This document shows positions 3,000 to 57,186 of a stretch of DNA of 64,000 nt, in pieces. The DNA is taken from contig CANOIR010000005.1 of the NCBI GenBank assembly GCA_947566125.1, positions 1-64,000 of the forward strand, written 5' to 3'. Source of the stretch: an uncultured Ruminococcus sp. (GTDB lineage: Bacteria > Bacillota > Clostridia > Oscillospirales > Ruminococcaceae). Numbering within the stretch: the first letter of the stretch is position 1; each line of letters starts with the position of its first letter. A model generated the notes under the pieces. That model was not told the origin of the DNA. It worked only from the letters and a program-made list of their open reading frames with translations, and ran no database searches. Position numbers and translations under genes: made by a program.

Positions 3000-3968
3000 T
3001 TAAGCCTTGGTCAAAATATGTACAGCATCTGTCATAATAGTACGGAATCCTGTCTGAATTGAAATAGTAATAGTAGAGAGCTGATTGTCTATGATCTTGT
3101 CTGTTTCCATTATCAGATCAGTGCCGGTCACCATTTCCAGAGCAAAATCCTTGTCGATGCCGATAATAGTCTTATCATCAAGCTGGGCTGTTTTCAAAAT
3201 TATTGCACCAAATGGAAGCATAGCTTCACCCGGATTTTCAGAAGAGCTTTCAAGCATCTGATCCATAGTAAGAATATTAGCAAGTACAGCCGGAGATGCA
3301 AGGACTGTATTAAGATTAAAGTCCTTAAATTTGCCGCAAAGATTAGCCAAGTCGCTGTATGTAAAATTAGAGCCGGATGCGGAAGTAGATGAACCGGAAT
3401 TTGTTTTCAATACATTTACAGCAGCCTTTACAATGGCATTGCCAAGCTTTACGCCAACGCTTCTAAGCATAACAGCAAGAACATCAAGTCGCTGTTTTCG
3501 TATAGCTTCATAAGAAATATGAATAGCACGTGCATATTTATTAAGTACAAGAGGTGATGCCTGTTCAGTTATTTCTGTAATAGGAAGAGCATTTTTCTGA
3601 GAAGTTGTAGTATCATATGAAGCATTGTCATTTATAGCACAGCCAAGATACTGAGATGAACTGCAAATAGTATGAACTGCTGATATATCTGACATAGCAG
3701 AACTGTCAATTCCCTGTTTGATTGCTCTGCGAATAAATTCCGGGAAAAGCACAGCACTTTCGGTTGATGTAAAGAACTTTTCTACACGGTCACATTCTGA
3801 ACCACTTATGCGTATATCAAAACGCTTCAGCTGACGTTCATATGCGTCAAGCTTAGCGAGTGGTGTATCTGCGTACTGATTTGATGGGTCAAGAGCTTCC
3901 AAAGCTTCAGTAAAGCTTTTATCTGACAGATGATAAAGACCCTTTTCAAGACGAACATTATTATACAT
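3000..3968 (-). CDS. Phage major capsid protein
   Basis: A 322-aa protein of the length and composition of a HK97-fold major capsid protein. It has a helical N-terminal segment (residues 1-100), a central SPLVLNKYARAIHISYEA strand region, and the long spine helix around residues 150-185. The C-terminal half contains an ASPAVLANILTMDQM-type segment and closing beta strands. It has an excellent ribosome binding site (AAAAAGGAG, seven bases from ATG 3968). It lies between portal and protease in the minus-strand operon. The call rests on length, fold-like pattern and neighbours. Confidence 0.7.
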   Translation of the reverse strand: MYNNVRLEKGLYHLSDKSFTEALEALDPSNQYADTPLAKLDAYERQLKRFDIRISGSECDRVEKFFTSTESAVLFPEFIRRAIKQGIDSSAMSDISAVHTICSSSQYLGCAINDNASYDTTTSQKNALPITEITEQASPLVLNKYARAIHISYEAIRKQRLDVLAVMLRSVGVKLGNAIVKAAVNVLKTNSGSSTSASGSNFTYSDLANLCGKFKDFNLNTVLASPAVLANILTMDQMLESSSENPGEAMLPFGAIILKTAQLDDKTIIGIDKDFALEMVTGTDLIMETDKIIDNQLSTITISIQTGFRTIMTDAVHILTKA

Positions 3969-4024
3969 AAAAAAATCTCCTTTTTAATATTTAAATATTT
4001 TGATATAATTAAACGTTTTTATTT

Positions 4025-52316: not shown

Positions 52317-53705
52317 ATGCTGTCAAACAAAGAAAAAAGCATGGACAAAATTGTTGAGCTTTGTAAATCAAGAGGTTTCGTTTACGCCGGCTCTGAAATT
52401 TACGGCGGACTTGCCAACACATGGGATTACGGTCCGCTTGGTGTTGGACTGAAAAACAACATAAAAGATGCATGGCGTAAGAAATTCGTTCAGGAATGTC
52501 CTTATAATGTAGGACTTGACAGTGCGATTCTTATGAATCCTGAAACATGGGTAGCATCTGGTCATTTGGGCGGATTCTCTGATCCGCTTATGGATTGTAA
52601 GAGCTGCAAGACACGTCACAGAGCTGATAATCTCATTGAAGATTTTGATGGTACTAACCCTGCTGGCTGGAGCAATCAGGAAATGATGGATTATATCCGT
52701 GAAAAGGGAATTACTTGTCCAAACTGCGGTAAGTGTGATTTTACTGATATAAGACAGTTCAATCTTATGTTCAAGACTTTCCAAGGCGTTACAGAGGATT
52801 CTAAATCTGAACTTTACCTGCGTCCTGAAACTGCTCAGGGAATATTTGTAAACTTTGCAAATATACAGCGTACTACAAGAAGAAAAGTTCCTTTTGGAGT
52901 AGCACAGGTCGGTAAATCTTTCCGTAATGAGATAACACCGGGCAACTTTATTTTCCGTGTACGTGAATTTGAGCAGATGGAGCTTGAATTTTTCTGCAAG
53001 CCTGGTACTGACCTTGAGTGGTTCCAGTATTGGAGAAGCTATTGCAAGAACTTCCTGACTAATCTTGGCATTAAGGAAGAGAATTTAAGACTTCGTGACC
53101 ATGATAAGGAAGAGCTTTGCTTCTACTCAAAGGCAACAACAGACTTTGAGTATCTGTTCCCATTTGGTTGGGGTGAGCTTTGGGGTATTGCTGACAGAAC
53201 AGACTATGACCTTACACAGCATCAGAATCACAGCGGTAAGTCACTGGAATATTTTGATCCAGAAGACAACACAAAGTATATTCCATATGTAATTGAGCCG
53301 TCACTTGGTGTTGAGCGTTTGTTCCTGTCAATTGTTACAGAAGCTTATGACGAAGAAGTTATTGATGCTGAAAAGAATGATGTAAGAACAGTTATGCATC
53401 TTCATCCTGCTCTTGCACCGTATAAGTGTGCGGTTTTACCACTTTCAAAGAAGCTTAGCACACAGGCTATGGAAGTATTCCAGGAGTTGTCAAAATATTT
53501 CTCTGTTGATTTTGATGAAACAGGTTCTATTGGTAAGCGTTATCGCAGACAGGATGAAATTGGTACACCATTCTGTATTACTTATGATTTTGACACATTG
53601 GAAAAAGACCAGTGTGTAACAGTACGTGACCGTGACACAATGCAGCAGGTAAGAATGCCGATTACAGAATTGGTAGATTACCTGCGTGAGAAAGTAATGC
53701 TTTAA
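52317..53705 (+). CDS. glyS: Glycyl-tRNA synthetase, alpha2 type
   Basis: 462 aa class II synthetase of the eukaryote/archaea-like homodimer type. Start region [21 protein letters not shown] with [19 protein letters not shown]; zinc site [11 protein letters not shown] and CPNCGKCDF; motif 2 [21 protein letters not shown]; motif 3 [14 protein letters not shown]. The C-terminal anticodon-binding domain is complete. No T-box leader fits in the 52 bp before it. ATG 52317 with GAAAGAGG upstream. Confidence 0.97.
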
Positions 53706-53732: not shown

Positions 53733-53985
53733 AATCAATAAAAGCTTTTTGGTCCAGCAATTTTTCAAAAATGCTGGTCGCTGTCCGCAGACAGCGAAAC
53801 GGCTCGCCACCAAAAAAGTTACGTGTGAAAAATTTAGCGTAAAAACAAAAAACAAAATTTCGCAAAATAAAAGGGCTTTCTGTTAAAATCAAGCAAACAA
53901 CAGAAAGCCTTGTTCTAATTTTAAGTAAAAGAAAAAAAGCGAAATTTTGTTGACAAAGCAAAAGAGGGAGCGAAGTGACCAATTT
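53733..53985 (+). repeat. Structured intergenic repeat, left copy
   Basis: About 253 bp. It contains three hairpins: CCAGCA...TGCTGG (53754-53777), CGCTGTC-cgca-GACAGCG (53779-53796), and GGCTTTCTG...CAGAAAGCC (53874-53909). The end reads GCGAAGTGACCAATT. It is the inverted, diverged counterpart of 54136-54380. No coding capacity. Confidence 0.85.
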
Positions 53986-54135
53986 TTTCGAACGGTTTAG
54001 ATCTTGCTTAATTTAGAATAAGTTGCTTTAAGAGTTGTAGCTCTGCTCTGATTTTGTGAAATTCAGAATGATTTTTCTTTTAGTTTTATCCATAGGCGAA
54101 ATATCCTATTTAAAGAATGCTTTATCCATCCGCAA

Positions 54136-54380
54136 GATTTGTCGCTTCGCTCTTGCTGGGTGTAAAAATTTCGCTTTTTTCTTTGATTGAATTTGAAAAA
54201 AGACTTTCTGTTTTGTGCTTGACATTTGCAGAAAGTCTTTTTATTATGCAAAATTTTTATTTTGGCTTTTTTGTTCTTTTTTTATCGCACGAACCTTTTT
54301 TGCTGTCGAGCCGTTTCGCCGTCTGCGGACGGCGACCAGCATTTTTGAAAAATTGCTGGACCAAAAAACTTTTATTGATT
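54136..54380 (-). repeat. Structured intergenic repeat, right copy (inverted)
   Basis: About 245 bp, reading from 54380 to 54136. It has the same three hairpins as the left copy, but two stems differ by paired changes. CGCCGTC/GACGGCG (54317-54334) replaces CGCTGTC/GACAGCG, and GACTTTCTG/CAGAAAGTC (54202-54237) replaces GGCTTTCTG/CAGAAAGCC. The outer hairpin arms are identical. Confidence 0.85.
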
Positions 54381-54413: not shown

Positions 54414-54458
54414 AAAAAGCACCATGCCGGCTTGTCCGCCGAAAACATGATGCTTTTT
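54414..54458. terminator. Bidirectional terminator downstream of ppdK
   Basis: AAAAAGCA pairs with TGCTTTTT; after a small internal loop ATG pairs with CAT, and a CGGC/GCCG stem lies inside. T runs follow on both strands. It ends the minus-strand ppdK message. Confidence 0.8.
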
Positions 54459-54558
54459 TTACGTTATGATACAAAAATCAGATGTCGGGATGTTTTTTAT
54501 AAAATTAAAATTTATATAAAACGATTTTATTTAAAATTTAAATTAAAAAATGCGATTA

Positions 54559-57186
54559 TTACTTGTTCTTGATTGCAGCCTGAGCAGCAGCCAGTCTTGC
54601 GATCGGAACACGATAAGGTGAGCAAGATACATAGTCAAGACCGATCTTGTGGCAGAATTCGATAGAAGAAGGATCGCCACCATGCTCGCCGCAGATACCT
54701 ACGTGGAGGTTTGGATTAACTGGCTTGCCCAGTTCGATAGCCATCTTCATCAGCTTACCTACACCTACCTGATCCAGTCTTGCAAATGGATCAGACTCGT
54801 AAATCTTGTTTTCATAATAAGAAGTAAGGAACTTACCAGCATCATCACGTGAGAAGCCAAATGTCATCTGTGTAAGGTCGTTTGTACCGAAGCAGAAGAA
54901 GTCAGCATCCTTTGCGATTTCGTCAGCTGTAAGAGCAGCTCTTGGGATTTCGATCATTGTACCTACCTGGTACTTCAGATCTACACCAGCTGCTGCGATT
55001 TCAGCATCAGCAGTTGCTACAACGCTCTTCTTAACGAACAGCATTTCCTTGTCTTCGCCAACCAGTGGGATCATGATCTCAGGAACTACATTCCAATCCG
55101 GATGAGCAGCCTTAACTTCGATTGCTGCACGGATAACTGCCTTTGTCTGCATTACTGCAATTTCCGGATATGTTACTGCCAGACGGCATCCACGGTGACC
55201 CATCATTGGGTTGAATTCGTGGAGAGAAGAGATGATGTTCTTGATAGACTCAACAGATTTACCCTGTGCATCTGCAAGAAGCTTAATATCCTCTTCTTCT
55301 GTAGGAACGAATTCGTGAAGCGGAGGATCCAGGAAACGGATAGTTACTGGACAGCCTTCCAGAGCTTCATAAAGTGCCTTGAAGTCGCTCTGCTGCATTG
55401 GGAGGATCTTCTCGAGTGCTGCTTCACGTTCTTCAACAGTTTCAGAACAAATCATTTCACGGAATGCATCAATTCTGCCTTCACCAAAGAACATATGCTC
55501 TGTACGGCAAAGACCGATACCATCAGCACCAAAGTGTCTTGCCTGCTTTGCATCCTTAGGAGTATCAGCATTTGTACGAACGCCAAGCTTCTTGTACTTA
55601 TCAGACCATTCCATGATCTTGCCGAAGTAACCACTGTCTGTGTTTGCAGGTACAGTTGGGATAGCTTCGCCATAAATGTTACCTGTTGTACCATCAAGAG
55701 AAATATAATCACCTTCAACATAAGTCTTGCCAGCAAGCTCGAACTTCTTGTTTGCTTCGTCCATCTTGATAGCACCGCAGCCAGATACACAGCAAGTACC
55801 CATACCACGAGCAACAACGGCAGCGTGAGATGTCATACCGCCACGTACAGTCAGGATACCCTGAGCTGCAACCATGCCTTCGATATCTTCAGGAGATGTT
55901 TCAAGACGAACCAGAACAACCTTTTCGCCCTTTGCAGCCCATTCCTTAGCATCGTCAGCTGTAAATACAACCTTACCGCAAGCAGCACCAGGAGATGCAG
56001 CAAGTGCAGATGCAACTGGAACAGCCTTCTTAAGAGCAGCAGCATCGAACTGTGGGTGAAGAAGAGCATCAAGTGACTTAGCATCAATCTGCATAAGAGC
56101 TTCTTCTTCTGTGATCATGCCTTCTTCTACCAGATCACAAGCGATCTTGATAGCAGCAGCAGCTGTTCTCTTACCATTTCTTGTCTGGAGCATATAGAGT
56201 TTCTTATCTTCGATTGTGAATTCCATATCCTGCATATCTCTGTAGTGATTTTCCAGAGTATTGCAGATGTTTGTGAACTGCTCGTAAACTTCAGGCATTG
56301 TATCAGCGAGCTGCTGAATTGGCTGAGGAGTACGTACACCAGCAACAACGTCTTCACCCTGTGCGTTCATAAGGAATTCGCCCATGAGCTTCTTTTCACC
56401 TGTAGCAGGGTTTCTTGTAAATGCAACACCTGTACCGGATGTATCACCCATGTTACCAAATGCCATCATCTGTACGTTTACAGCTGTACCCCAAGAATAA
56501 GGAATATCATTCATCATTCTGTATACGTTAGCTCTTGGGTTATCCCAGCTTCTGAATACGGCTTCAACAGCACCCATCAGCTGTTCTACAGGATCAGTTG
56601 GGAAGTCCTTACCGATCTTGGACTTGTACTCATCCTTGAACTGCTCAGCCAGGATCTTCAGGTCTTCTGCTGTCAGGTCAACGTCCTGAGTTACGCCACG
56701 CTCTTCCTTCATCTTGTCGATAAGCTCTTCAAAGTACTTCTTACCAACTTCCATAACTACGTCAGAATACATCTGGATGAATCTTCTGTAGCAGTCACGA
56801 GCCCAACGTTCATTACCGGACTTAGCAGCCATTACTTCAACAACATCTTCGTTAAGACCAAGGTTAAGGATTGTATCCATCATGCCTGGCATTGATGCTC
56901 TTGCACCTGAACGTACAGATACCAGAAGAGGATTTTCCTTATCACCGAACTTCTTGCCAGTGATTTCTTCCATCTTGCCGATGTATTCCATGATCTGAGC
57001 CTTGATCTCATCATTGATCTTACGGCCATCTTCATAATACTGTGTGCAAGCCTCTGTGGAAATTGTAAAGCCCTGCGGTACCGGCAGACCCAGACCTGTC
57101 ATTTCAGCCAGGTTTGCACCCTTACCGCCGAGAAGCTCTCTCATTGTTGCGTTACCTTCTGTGAACAAATAAACATACTTCTTCAT
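54559..57186 (-). CDS. ppdK: Pyruvate, phosphate dikinase
   Basis: 875 aa, full length. Interconverts pyruvate, ATP and phosphate with PEP, AMP and pyrophosphate; in anaerobes it often runs in the glycolytic direction. ATP-grasp N-terminal domain begins LLGGKGANLAEMTGLGLPVP. The swivelling phosphohistidine domain has GGMTSHAAVVARGMGTCCVSG (catalytic His). The C-terminal PEP barrel holds CGEHGGDPSSIEFCHKIG with the catalytic Cys. Start ATG 57186 behind CTGGAGG, overlapping the stop of a short upstream ORF. Codon choice is strongly biased, as in highly expressed genes. Confidence 0.98.
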   Translation of the reverse strand: MKKYVYLFTEGNATMRELLGGKGANLAEMTGLGLPVPQGFTISTEACTQYYEDGRKINDEIKAQIMEYIGKMEEITGKKFGDKENPLLVSVRSGARASMPGMMDTILNLGLNEDVVEVMAAKSGNERWARDCYRRFIQMYSDVVMEVGKKYFEELIDKMKEERGVTQDVDLTAEDLKILAEQFKDEYKSKIGKDFPTDPVEQLMGAVEAVFRSWDNPRANVYRMMNDIPYSWGTAVNVQMMAFGNMGDTSGTGVAFTRNPATGEKKLMGEFLMNAQGEDVVAGVRTPQPIQQLADTMPEVYEQFTNICNTLENHYRDMQDMEFTIEDKKLYMLQTRNGKRTAAAAIKIACDLVEEGMITEEEALMQIDAKSLDALLHPQFDAAALKKAVPVASALAASPGAACGKVVFTADDAKEWAAKGEKVVLVRLETSPEDIEGMVAAQGILTVRGGMTSHAAVVARGMGTCCVSGCGAIKMDEANKKFELAGKTYVEGDYISLDGTTGNIYGEAIPTVPANTDSGYFGKIMEWSDKYKKLGVRTNADTPKDAKQARHFGADGIGLCRTEHMFFGEGRIDAFREMICSETVEEREAALEKILPMQQSDFKALYEALEGCPVTIRFLDPPLHEFVPTEEEDIKLLADAQGKSVESIKNIISSLHEFNPMMGHRGCRLAVTYPEIAVMQTKAVIRAAIEVKAAHPDWNVVPEIMIPLVGEDKEMLFVKKSVVATADAEIAAAGVDLKYQVGTMIEIPRAALTADEIAKDADFFCFGTNDLTQMTFGFSRDDAGKFLTSYYENKIYESDPFARLDQVGVGKLMKMAIELGKPVNPNLHVGICGEHGGDPSSIEFCHKIGLDYVSCSPYRVPIARLAAAQAAIKNK

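Follow-up and report, generated by a model that had tools for sequence, protein, structure and literature searches.

The described systems closest to the feature analysed here are MITEs and the ERIC, NEMIS/Correia, RUP, BOX and CIR repeats, which share with it a short, non-coding, dispersed, intergenic and non-autonomous nature and the presence of strong hairpins (PMC2229807, PMC2267715). Some MITEs and stem-loop repeats feature terminal inverted repeats, as does the present family, and target duplications, which in this family were recognised in relatives, and CIR repeats likewise consist of two arms and a linker (PMC2229807, PMC2267715). In contrast to MITE/ERIC-type repeats, however, the family contains three abutting palindromes, whose sequence has changed wholesale across a whole order while pairing was kept, and one and the same cluster occurs in elements whose terminal repeats differ. 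Moreover, the two-armed form measures about 650 bp.

Elements of the IS1272/IS1182 type insert at palindromic stem-loops beside genes (PMC5678879), a habit observed here in relatives only. In IS1272 insertions, the stem-loop was found to be replaced and no target duplication arose; a pathway duplicating the whole stem-loop is drawn in the IS1272 model, but was not seen (PMC5678879). Unlike IS1272, insertions in the relatives duplicate the whole terminator palindrome, and no PF13751 (IS1182-type) transposase was found in the 6 genomes searched. REPINs and REP-RAYT systems are also palindromic intergenic repeats, sometimes arranged in inverted pairs. Here, in contrast, most carriers lack a Y1 transposase, and the unit comprises at least three hairpins and extends up to hundreds of bases. 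Structured RNA families of Rfam likewise have hairpins that covary and keep a fixed order, yet here G.U pairs are in deficit, unlike in RNA genes. The nearest Rfam family, Clostridiales-2 (RF02937), reaches 22 bits, its gathering score being 58.6. The feature probably represents a mobile repeat that is non-autonomous and MITE-like, is made of a string of hairpins and is present here in a two-armed foldback form.

Two-armed element between glyS and ppdK

In the window, i.e., the whole stretch of 64,000 nucleotides that was analysed, positions 53734-54379 between glyS (+) and ppdK (-) are occupied by a two-armed, palindromic, non-coding element of approximately 650 bases. The element lies in the intergenic gap of two convergent genes, the stop codons of which map at 53705 (glyS) and near 54559 (ppdK). 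The two diverged, inverted segments of ~250 bp noted in this gap by a preliminary description are indeed present. A repeat search of the window revealed two inverted matches, 53716-53845/54268-54397 (130 nt, 85% complementary) and 53828-53936/54175-54283 (109 nt, 72% complementary). The features are the following:

53734-54379, no strand: whole foldback element, outer ends ATCAATAAAAG.../...CTTTTATTGAT
53734-53989, plus strand: left arm, A type, with the loop GAGGGAGCGAAGTGACCAA in the terminal hairpin
53754-53777, plus strand: left-arm hairpin H1, CCAGCA-ATTTTTCAAAAA-TGCTGG, covarying order-wide
53778-53797, plus strand: left-arm hairpin H3, TCGCTGTC-CGCA-GACAGCGA
53853-53949, plus strand: left-arm long stem, CAAAATTTCGC / GCGAAATTTTG, covarying between species
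53874-53909, plus strand: left-arm inner hairpin, GGCTTTCTGTT / AACAGAAAGCC
53958-53989, plus strand: left-arm terminal hairpin, GCAAAA..TTTTTC, one uncompensated C x T mismatch
53990-54131, no strand: central spacer
54132-54379, minus strand: right arm, B type
54132-54156, minus strand: right-arm terminal hairpin, GCAAGA..TCTTGC
54164-54258, minus strand: right-arm long stem, AAAAATTTTGC / GCGAAATTTTT, one G.U pair
54197-54242, minus strand: right-arm inner hairpin, AAAAAGACTTTCTG / CAGAAAGTCTTTTT
54316-54335, minus strand: right-arm hairpin H3, TCGCCGTC..GACGGCGA
54336-54359, minus strand: right-arm hairpin H1
54414-54460, no strand: terminator-like hairpin adjoining ppdK, outside the element, kept in a species (G008) that lacks the element at this place

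From the outside inwards, arms consist of ATCAATAAAAGTTTTTTGGTC, H1 (CCAGCA..TGCTGG), H3 (TCGCYGTC-CGCA-GACRGCGA), a linker, a long stem and a terminal hairpin (consensus GCAARA..TYTTGC). In both arms the long stem (AAAATTTCGC/GCGAAATTTT, 11 pairs) encloses the GGCTTTCTG hairpin. A further hairpin of the family, H2, is absent in the window species. The hairpins recognised earlier are real, but each arm contains more than the three that had been counted. The arms of the window copy begin with ATCAATAAAAGTTTTTTGG, and thus have terminal inverted repeats, as MITEs do. The element also resembles MITEs in being non-coding, dispersed and multi-copy and in lacking a transposase; neither coding capacity in the element nor a transposase nearby was found in the window, as the preliminary description had stated. 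Folding z-scores are -4.3 and -4.6 for the single arms and -22.8 for the whole stretch, the latter mainly reflecting arm-to-arm pairing.

A role as a terminator or ncRNA, also put forward earlier, was not shown. The window contains no match to Rfam at the gathering threshold, and no terminator-like site was found within the element. A near-consensus promoter-like site (TTGACA-17-TATTAT, 54219-54247) facing ppdK is present in the right arm, and the count of such sites does not exceed the chance expectation.

The two segments are not the only ones of their kind, which the preliminary description had named as a condition that would refute it. A search with the first 130 bp located 14 matching places in the genome (2.19 Mb). 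The full two-armed layout is found at three loci: the window copy, C13:35623-36276 and C13:56501-57106, the last at a contig end. Other copies include a tandem (contig C45), a minimal 67-bp palindrome (C16) and a variant (C3). Over 250 nt, A arms are 0.89 alike and B arms 0.87-0.92, versus 0.76-0.83 for the two arms of one element. Since arms of the same type resemble each other more than they resemble their own partners, it was the whole element, with distinct left and right arms, that spread through this genome. Judged by sequence likeness, the two supposed copies are better described as a left and a right arm belonging to a single element, not as independent units. Homogenisation between the arms of one element was tested over the same 250 nt and was not found. 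The central spacer of the C13:35623 copy is inverted relative to the arms when compared with the window and C13:56501 copies.

A pair of unrelated terminators that converge, or an inverted repeat arisen by chance, would suit a site between convergent genes. This explanation has a negligible probability, given that the same arms occur at many loci and in other species and that a terminator-like site is missing. A chance inverted repeat, in particular, is excluded by the 14 genomic matches and by the folding of the single arms.

Distribution and gene context of the family

BLAST-level matches were found in 11/15 other members of the genus checked. Many Ruminococcus contigs carry the repeat and are often broken at it. 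When about 85,000 species genomes were scanned for the exact pattern, the matches lay mostly in Ruminococcus contigs, along with about a dozen scattered, chance-like single matches in unrelated organisms; a search of viral contigs returned 1 match. A covariance model of the H1-H2-H3 cluster (R2), built from a subset consisting of Ruminococcus sequences only, produced full-length matches in other genera and families. The search of relatives that the preliminary description had called for thus located the cluster in 53/297 genomes and 34/146 genera of the order, figures that carry rough E-values and come from search filters that may miss weak copies. In a phylum sample R2 hit the window genome only, out of 299 genomes, few of which belong to the same class.

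The distribution is patchy, and copy number is uneven, ranging among congeners from 0 in some to 42 in another. Hairpin order and spacing are held across families, and inverted pairs of the cluster are also present in other genera. The H1 stem CCAGCA..TGCTGG is elsewhere replaced by CAAGCC..GGCTTG, CCACCTT..AAGGTGG or CAGCC..GGCTG. Rfam scans of the genus loci and of the order loci gave weak matches only, all below gathering. In the open-access literature, neither the sequence strings of the repeat nor any account of a comparable repeat from Ruminococcus or Oscillospirales was found. We are dealing with a previously unnamed, hairpin-rich family dispersed across many genera of the order. If this is correct, many gut Clostridia share a common intergenic component that has been overlooked and that in some species reaches dozens of copies per genome and breaks assemblies.

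The position of the cluster relative to genes is biased. Order-wide, the left gene reads towards the cluster in 54 of the 70 cases in which there is a left gene, and 27 of these 54 clusters start no more than 40 nt from the upstream stop codon. In co-directional intergenes, sense clusters outnumber antisense ones (19 vs 7). These features would be expected of a structured RNA at gene 3' ends, co-transcribed and active in mRNA 3'-end protection, processing or termination, in which covariation reflects RNA selection. We regard this reading as rather unlikely. Within Ruminococcus the co-directional orientation is evenly split (16:16), so that the gene-end bias may come from elements inserting, or being tolerated, close to gene ends and not from a function as RNA. 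The great patchiness among close relatives, the lack of any Rfam match above threshold and of a terminator-like site in the window element also speak against an RNA.

Some loci are common to several species, i.e., the 3' ends of rnr, glgP, rpiB and glyS and the 5' side of aguB (gene names were read from the protein sequences). Shared positions suggest that, besides moving, the repeat was vertically inherited long ago or has been retained. In G008, the glyS-ppdK order is conserved along with the terminator on the ppdK side, and the insert is different. This insert (L171) contains a 35-aa hydrophobic ORF (MMETYVTWNDLIQFMLMLISGTSLLYMIFHNNKRK), the product of which resembles small peptides of the holin-like or type I toxin kind.

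Covariation of the stems

The two compensatory changes given in the preliminary description are real. A T-A to C-G change distinguishes the H3 hairpins of the two arms, and a G-C to A-T change distinguishes the GGCTTTCTG hairpin (53874-53909) from its counterpart AGACTTTCTG (54197-54242). Compensation is incomplete, the left terminal hairpin having a C x T mismatch and the right long stem a G.U. In window-type arms, 97.6% of cells are paired and double-changed cells are 17 versus 5.5 in shuffles; the counts come from alignment subset A3, and RNAalifold misplaced H3 in three rows of the arms. In the genus, 95.7% of H1-H3 cells are paired (37-47% in the slid control), and 36 are double-changed (12 in shuffles). 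Order-wide, double changes occur at 25/25 stem pairs, 98.6% of cells are paired against 32-47% when slid, and double-changed cells number 525 against 130 in shuffles; this alignment (A6) was fitted to the structure from best-scoring matches only, and leans towards pairing and perfect stems. Covariation thus exceeds both shuffled and slid controls, as in structured RNA families. Entire stems have been rewritten with pairing kept, and double changes are found almost without intermediates. A possible closing stem, TTTYG/CGAAA, surrounds H1-H3.

Covariation, the fixed order of the hairpins and the possible closing stem favour the RNA reading. Under RNA selection, however, G.U pairs should be tolerated and A.C pairs avoided on one strand, and order-wide this pattern was not found. 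Of 2341 pair cells, 2288 are Watson-Crick, 19 G.T and 13 A.C (G.T vs A.C, p = 0.38); the G.U share is only 0.8%, in an alignment that, being made by a covariance model, would if anything favour G.U. By comparison, tRNA stems at the same loci feature 12 G.T of 120 (10%) and no A.C, and terminator-like hairpins 63 G.T vs 31 A.C. A weak contrary result, which leans to RNA, was obtained from the in-genus H2-H4 hairpins alone (6 G.T vs 0 A.C, p = 0.03). The rarity and near-equal numbers of G.T and A.C, unlike in tRNA stems, argue for a constraint at the level of DNA hairpins, or for template copying, over RNA selection. The covariation reported in the preliminary description is confirmed, but selection on RNA, which that description had offered beside selection on cruciform structure, is not supported as its cause.

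Judged by the alignments, the better fit is provided by copying of one hairpin arm from the other or by recognition at the DNA level. Template switching has been reported to homogenise inverted-repeat arms and to invert spacers (PMC8604942). Changes on both sides of a stem with almost no intermediates would fit such DNA template switching. Such copying would have to be confined to the short hairpins, as the arms of a single element are not homogenised with each other. If the DNA-level reading is true, covariation, which usually serves as proof that an RNA is functional, can also originate in DNA, with hundreds of double changes and G.T no commoner than A.C. The family, in which hairpins are rebuilt in new sequence and perfectly paired, is a test case for the spread and maintenance of palindromes.

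Mobility in relatives

The cluster of Ruminococcus sp. SIG547 resides inside elements of 295-316 bp with the ends CAGTTTGTCGAAAAAG and CTACAGTCTG (CAG..GAAAAA). All nine complete copies for which both flanks are available (L101, L106, L111, L136, L150, L151, L154, L161 and L162) sit between duplicated perfect palindromes of 19-28 bp; outside these nine, a 349-bp stretch in L154 has the same end motifs and no duplication, and the L138 copy is cut by a contig end. Duplications are exact or have one mismatch, and the palindrome, which is the host terminator, differs at each locus. The elements directly follow host terminator hairpins, and the whole hairpin is found on both sides, as a target duplication of variable length defined by structure. 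Such duplications would make structure-directed transposition directly testable. They support the option of a non-autonomous mobile element raised in the preliminary description.

Shorter elements with the same CAGNYTGTNGAAAAA ends, devoid of the cluster, are located beside terminator palindromes in G012 and G010 (L323-L325, L327, L334), and the palindrome is duplicated in 5/12 of them. G012 holds about 90 such CAGNYTGTNGAAAAA ends. In genus g280, four copies carry terminal inverted repeats of ~20 bp (AGYGCCCAAA..) that differ from the SIG547 ends, and are probably flanked by short duplications. The cluster thus travels in elements with unlike ends. Consequently, H1-H2-H3 could be an order-wide passenger cassette captured by unrelated MITEs, with stem-loop-targeting ends in SIG547, classical terminal inverted repeats in g280 and ends of its own in the window genome; its palindromes would be kept perfect by DNA template copying, and its covariation would mimic an RNA family in which no RNA is under selection. 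We hold this as a tentative reading of fairly low probability.

Movement was observed in relatives, and we infer it for the window copy. No target-site duplication or clean empty site was recognised for the latter, the corresponding place in G008 being occupied by other DNA. An unlikely explanation is that the repeats are neutral relics, old and immobile, the palindromes of which are kept by quasi-palindrome template switching with neither selection nor current transposition. Positions conserved between species, diverged copies and degenerate fragments in the window genome, and double changes that nearly lack intermediates are consistent with relics. Near-identical SIG547 copies with exact target duplications, the amplification of the unit in the window genome, and hairpin order and spacing held across families are not.

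According to the mobile-repeat reading, which we favour, the unit would consist of near-perfect palindromes (H1, an optional H2 and H3) followed by variable hairpins. A transposase supplied in trans would recognise the ends or the extruded hairpins, and insertion would preferentially occur at gene ends and terminator palindromes. Stems may be kept perfect mainly by arm-to-arm copying at the DNA level (intrastrand template switching), by recognition of DNA hairpins, or by both, and less by selection on an RNA.

IS200/IS605 elements are not known to make long target duplications. A Y1 tyrosine transposase moving palindromes of REPIN/RAYT-like or IS200/IS605-derived type would account for small intergenic hairpin repeats that often form inverted pairs. 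Only 2 of the 12 repeat-rich genomes encode a Y1 transposase, and the 10 genomes without it include the window genome; together with the long target duplications in SIG547, this makes involvement of a Y1 enzyme very improbable.

No autonomous element with matching ends was found in the genomes searched, which are incomplete. Two pairs of ends were considered as candidates and rejected, since the G003 pair encloses serS and the G004 pair a GNAT gene, and separate insertions beside ordinary genes are more likely. In G003 (C45:15247-17285, L080), serS, next to rsmG and parB, is located between two arms that face each other. In G004, the GNAT gene between the two facing arms is intact. The centres of G006 elements (L082, about 850-990; L126, about 3860-3990) read as the degenerate C-terminal part of a GNAT acetyltransferase, based on a weak Pfam match (E 0.083), and GNAT sequences are possible cargo of the elements.
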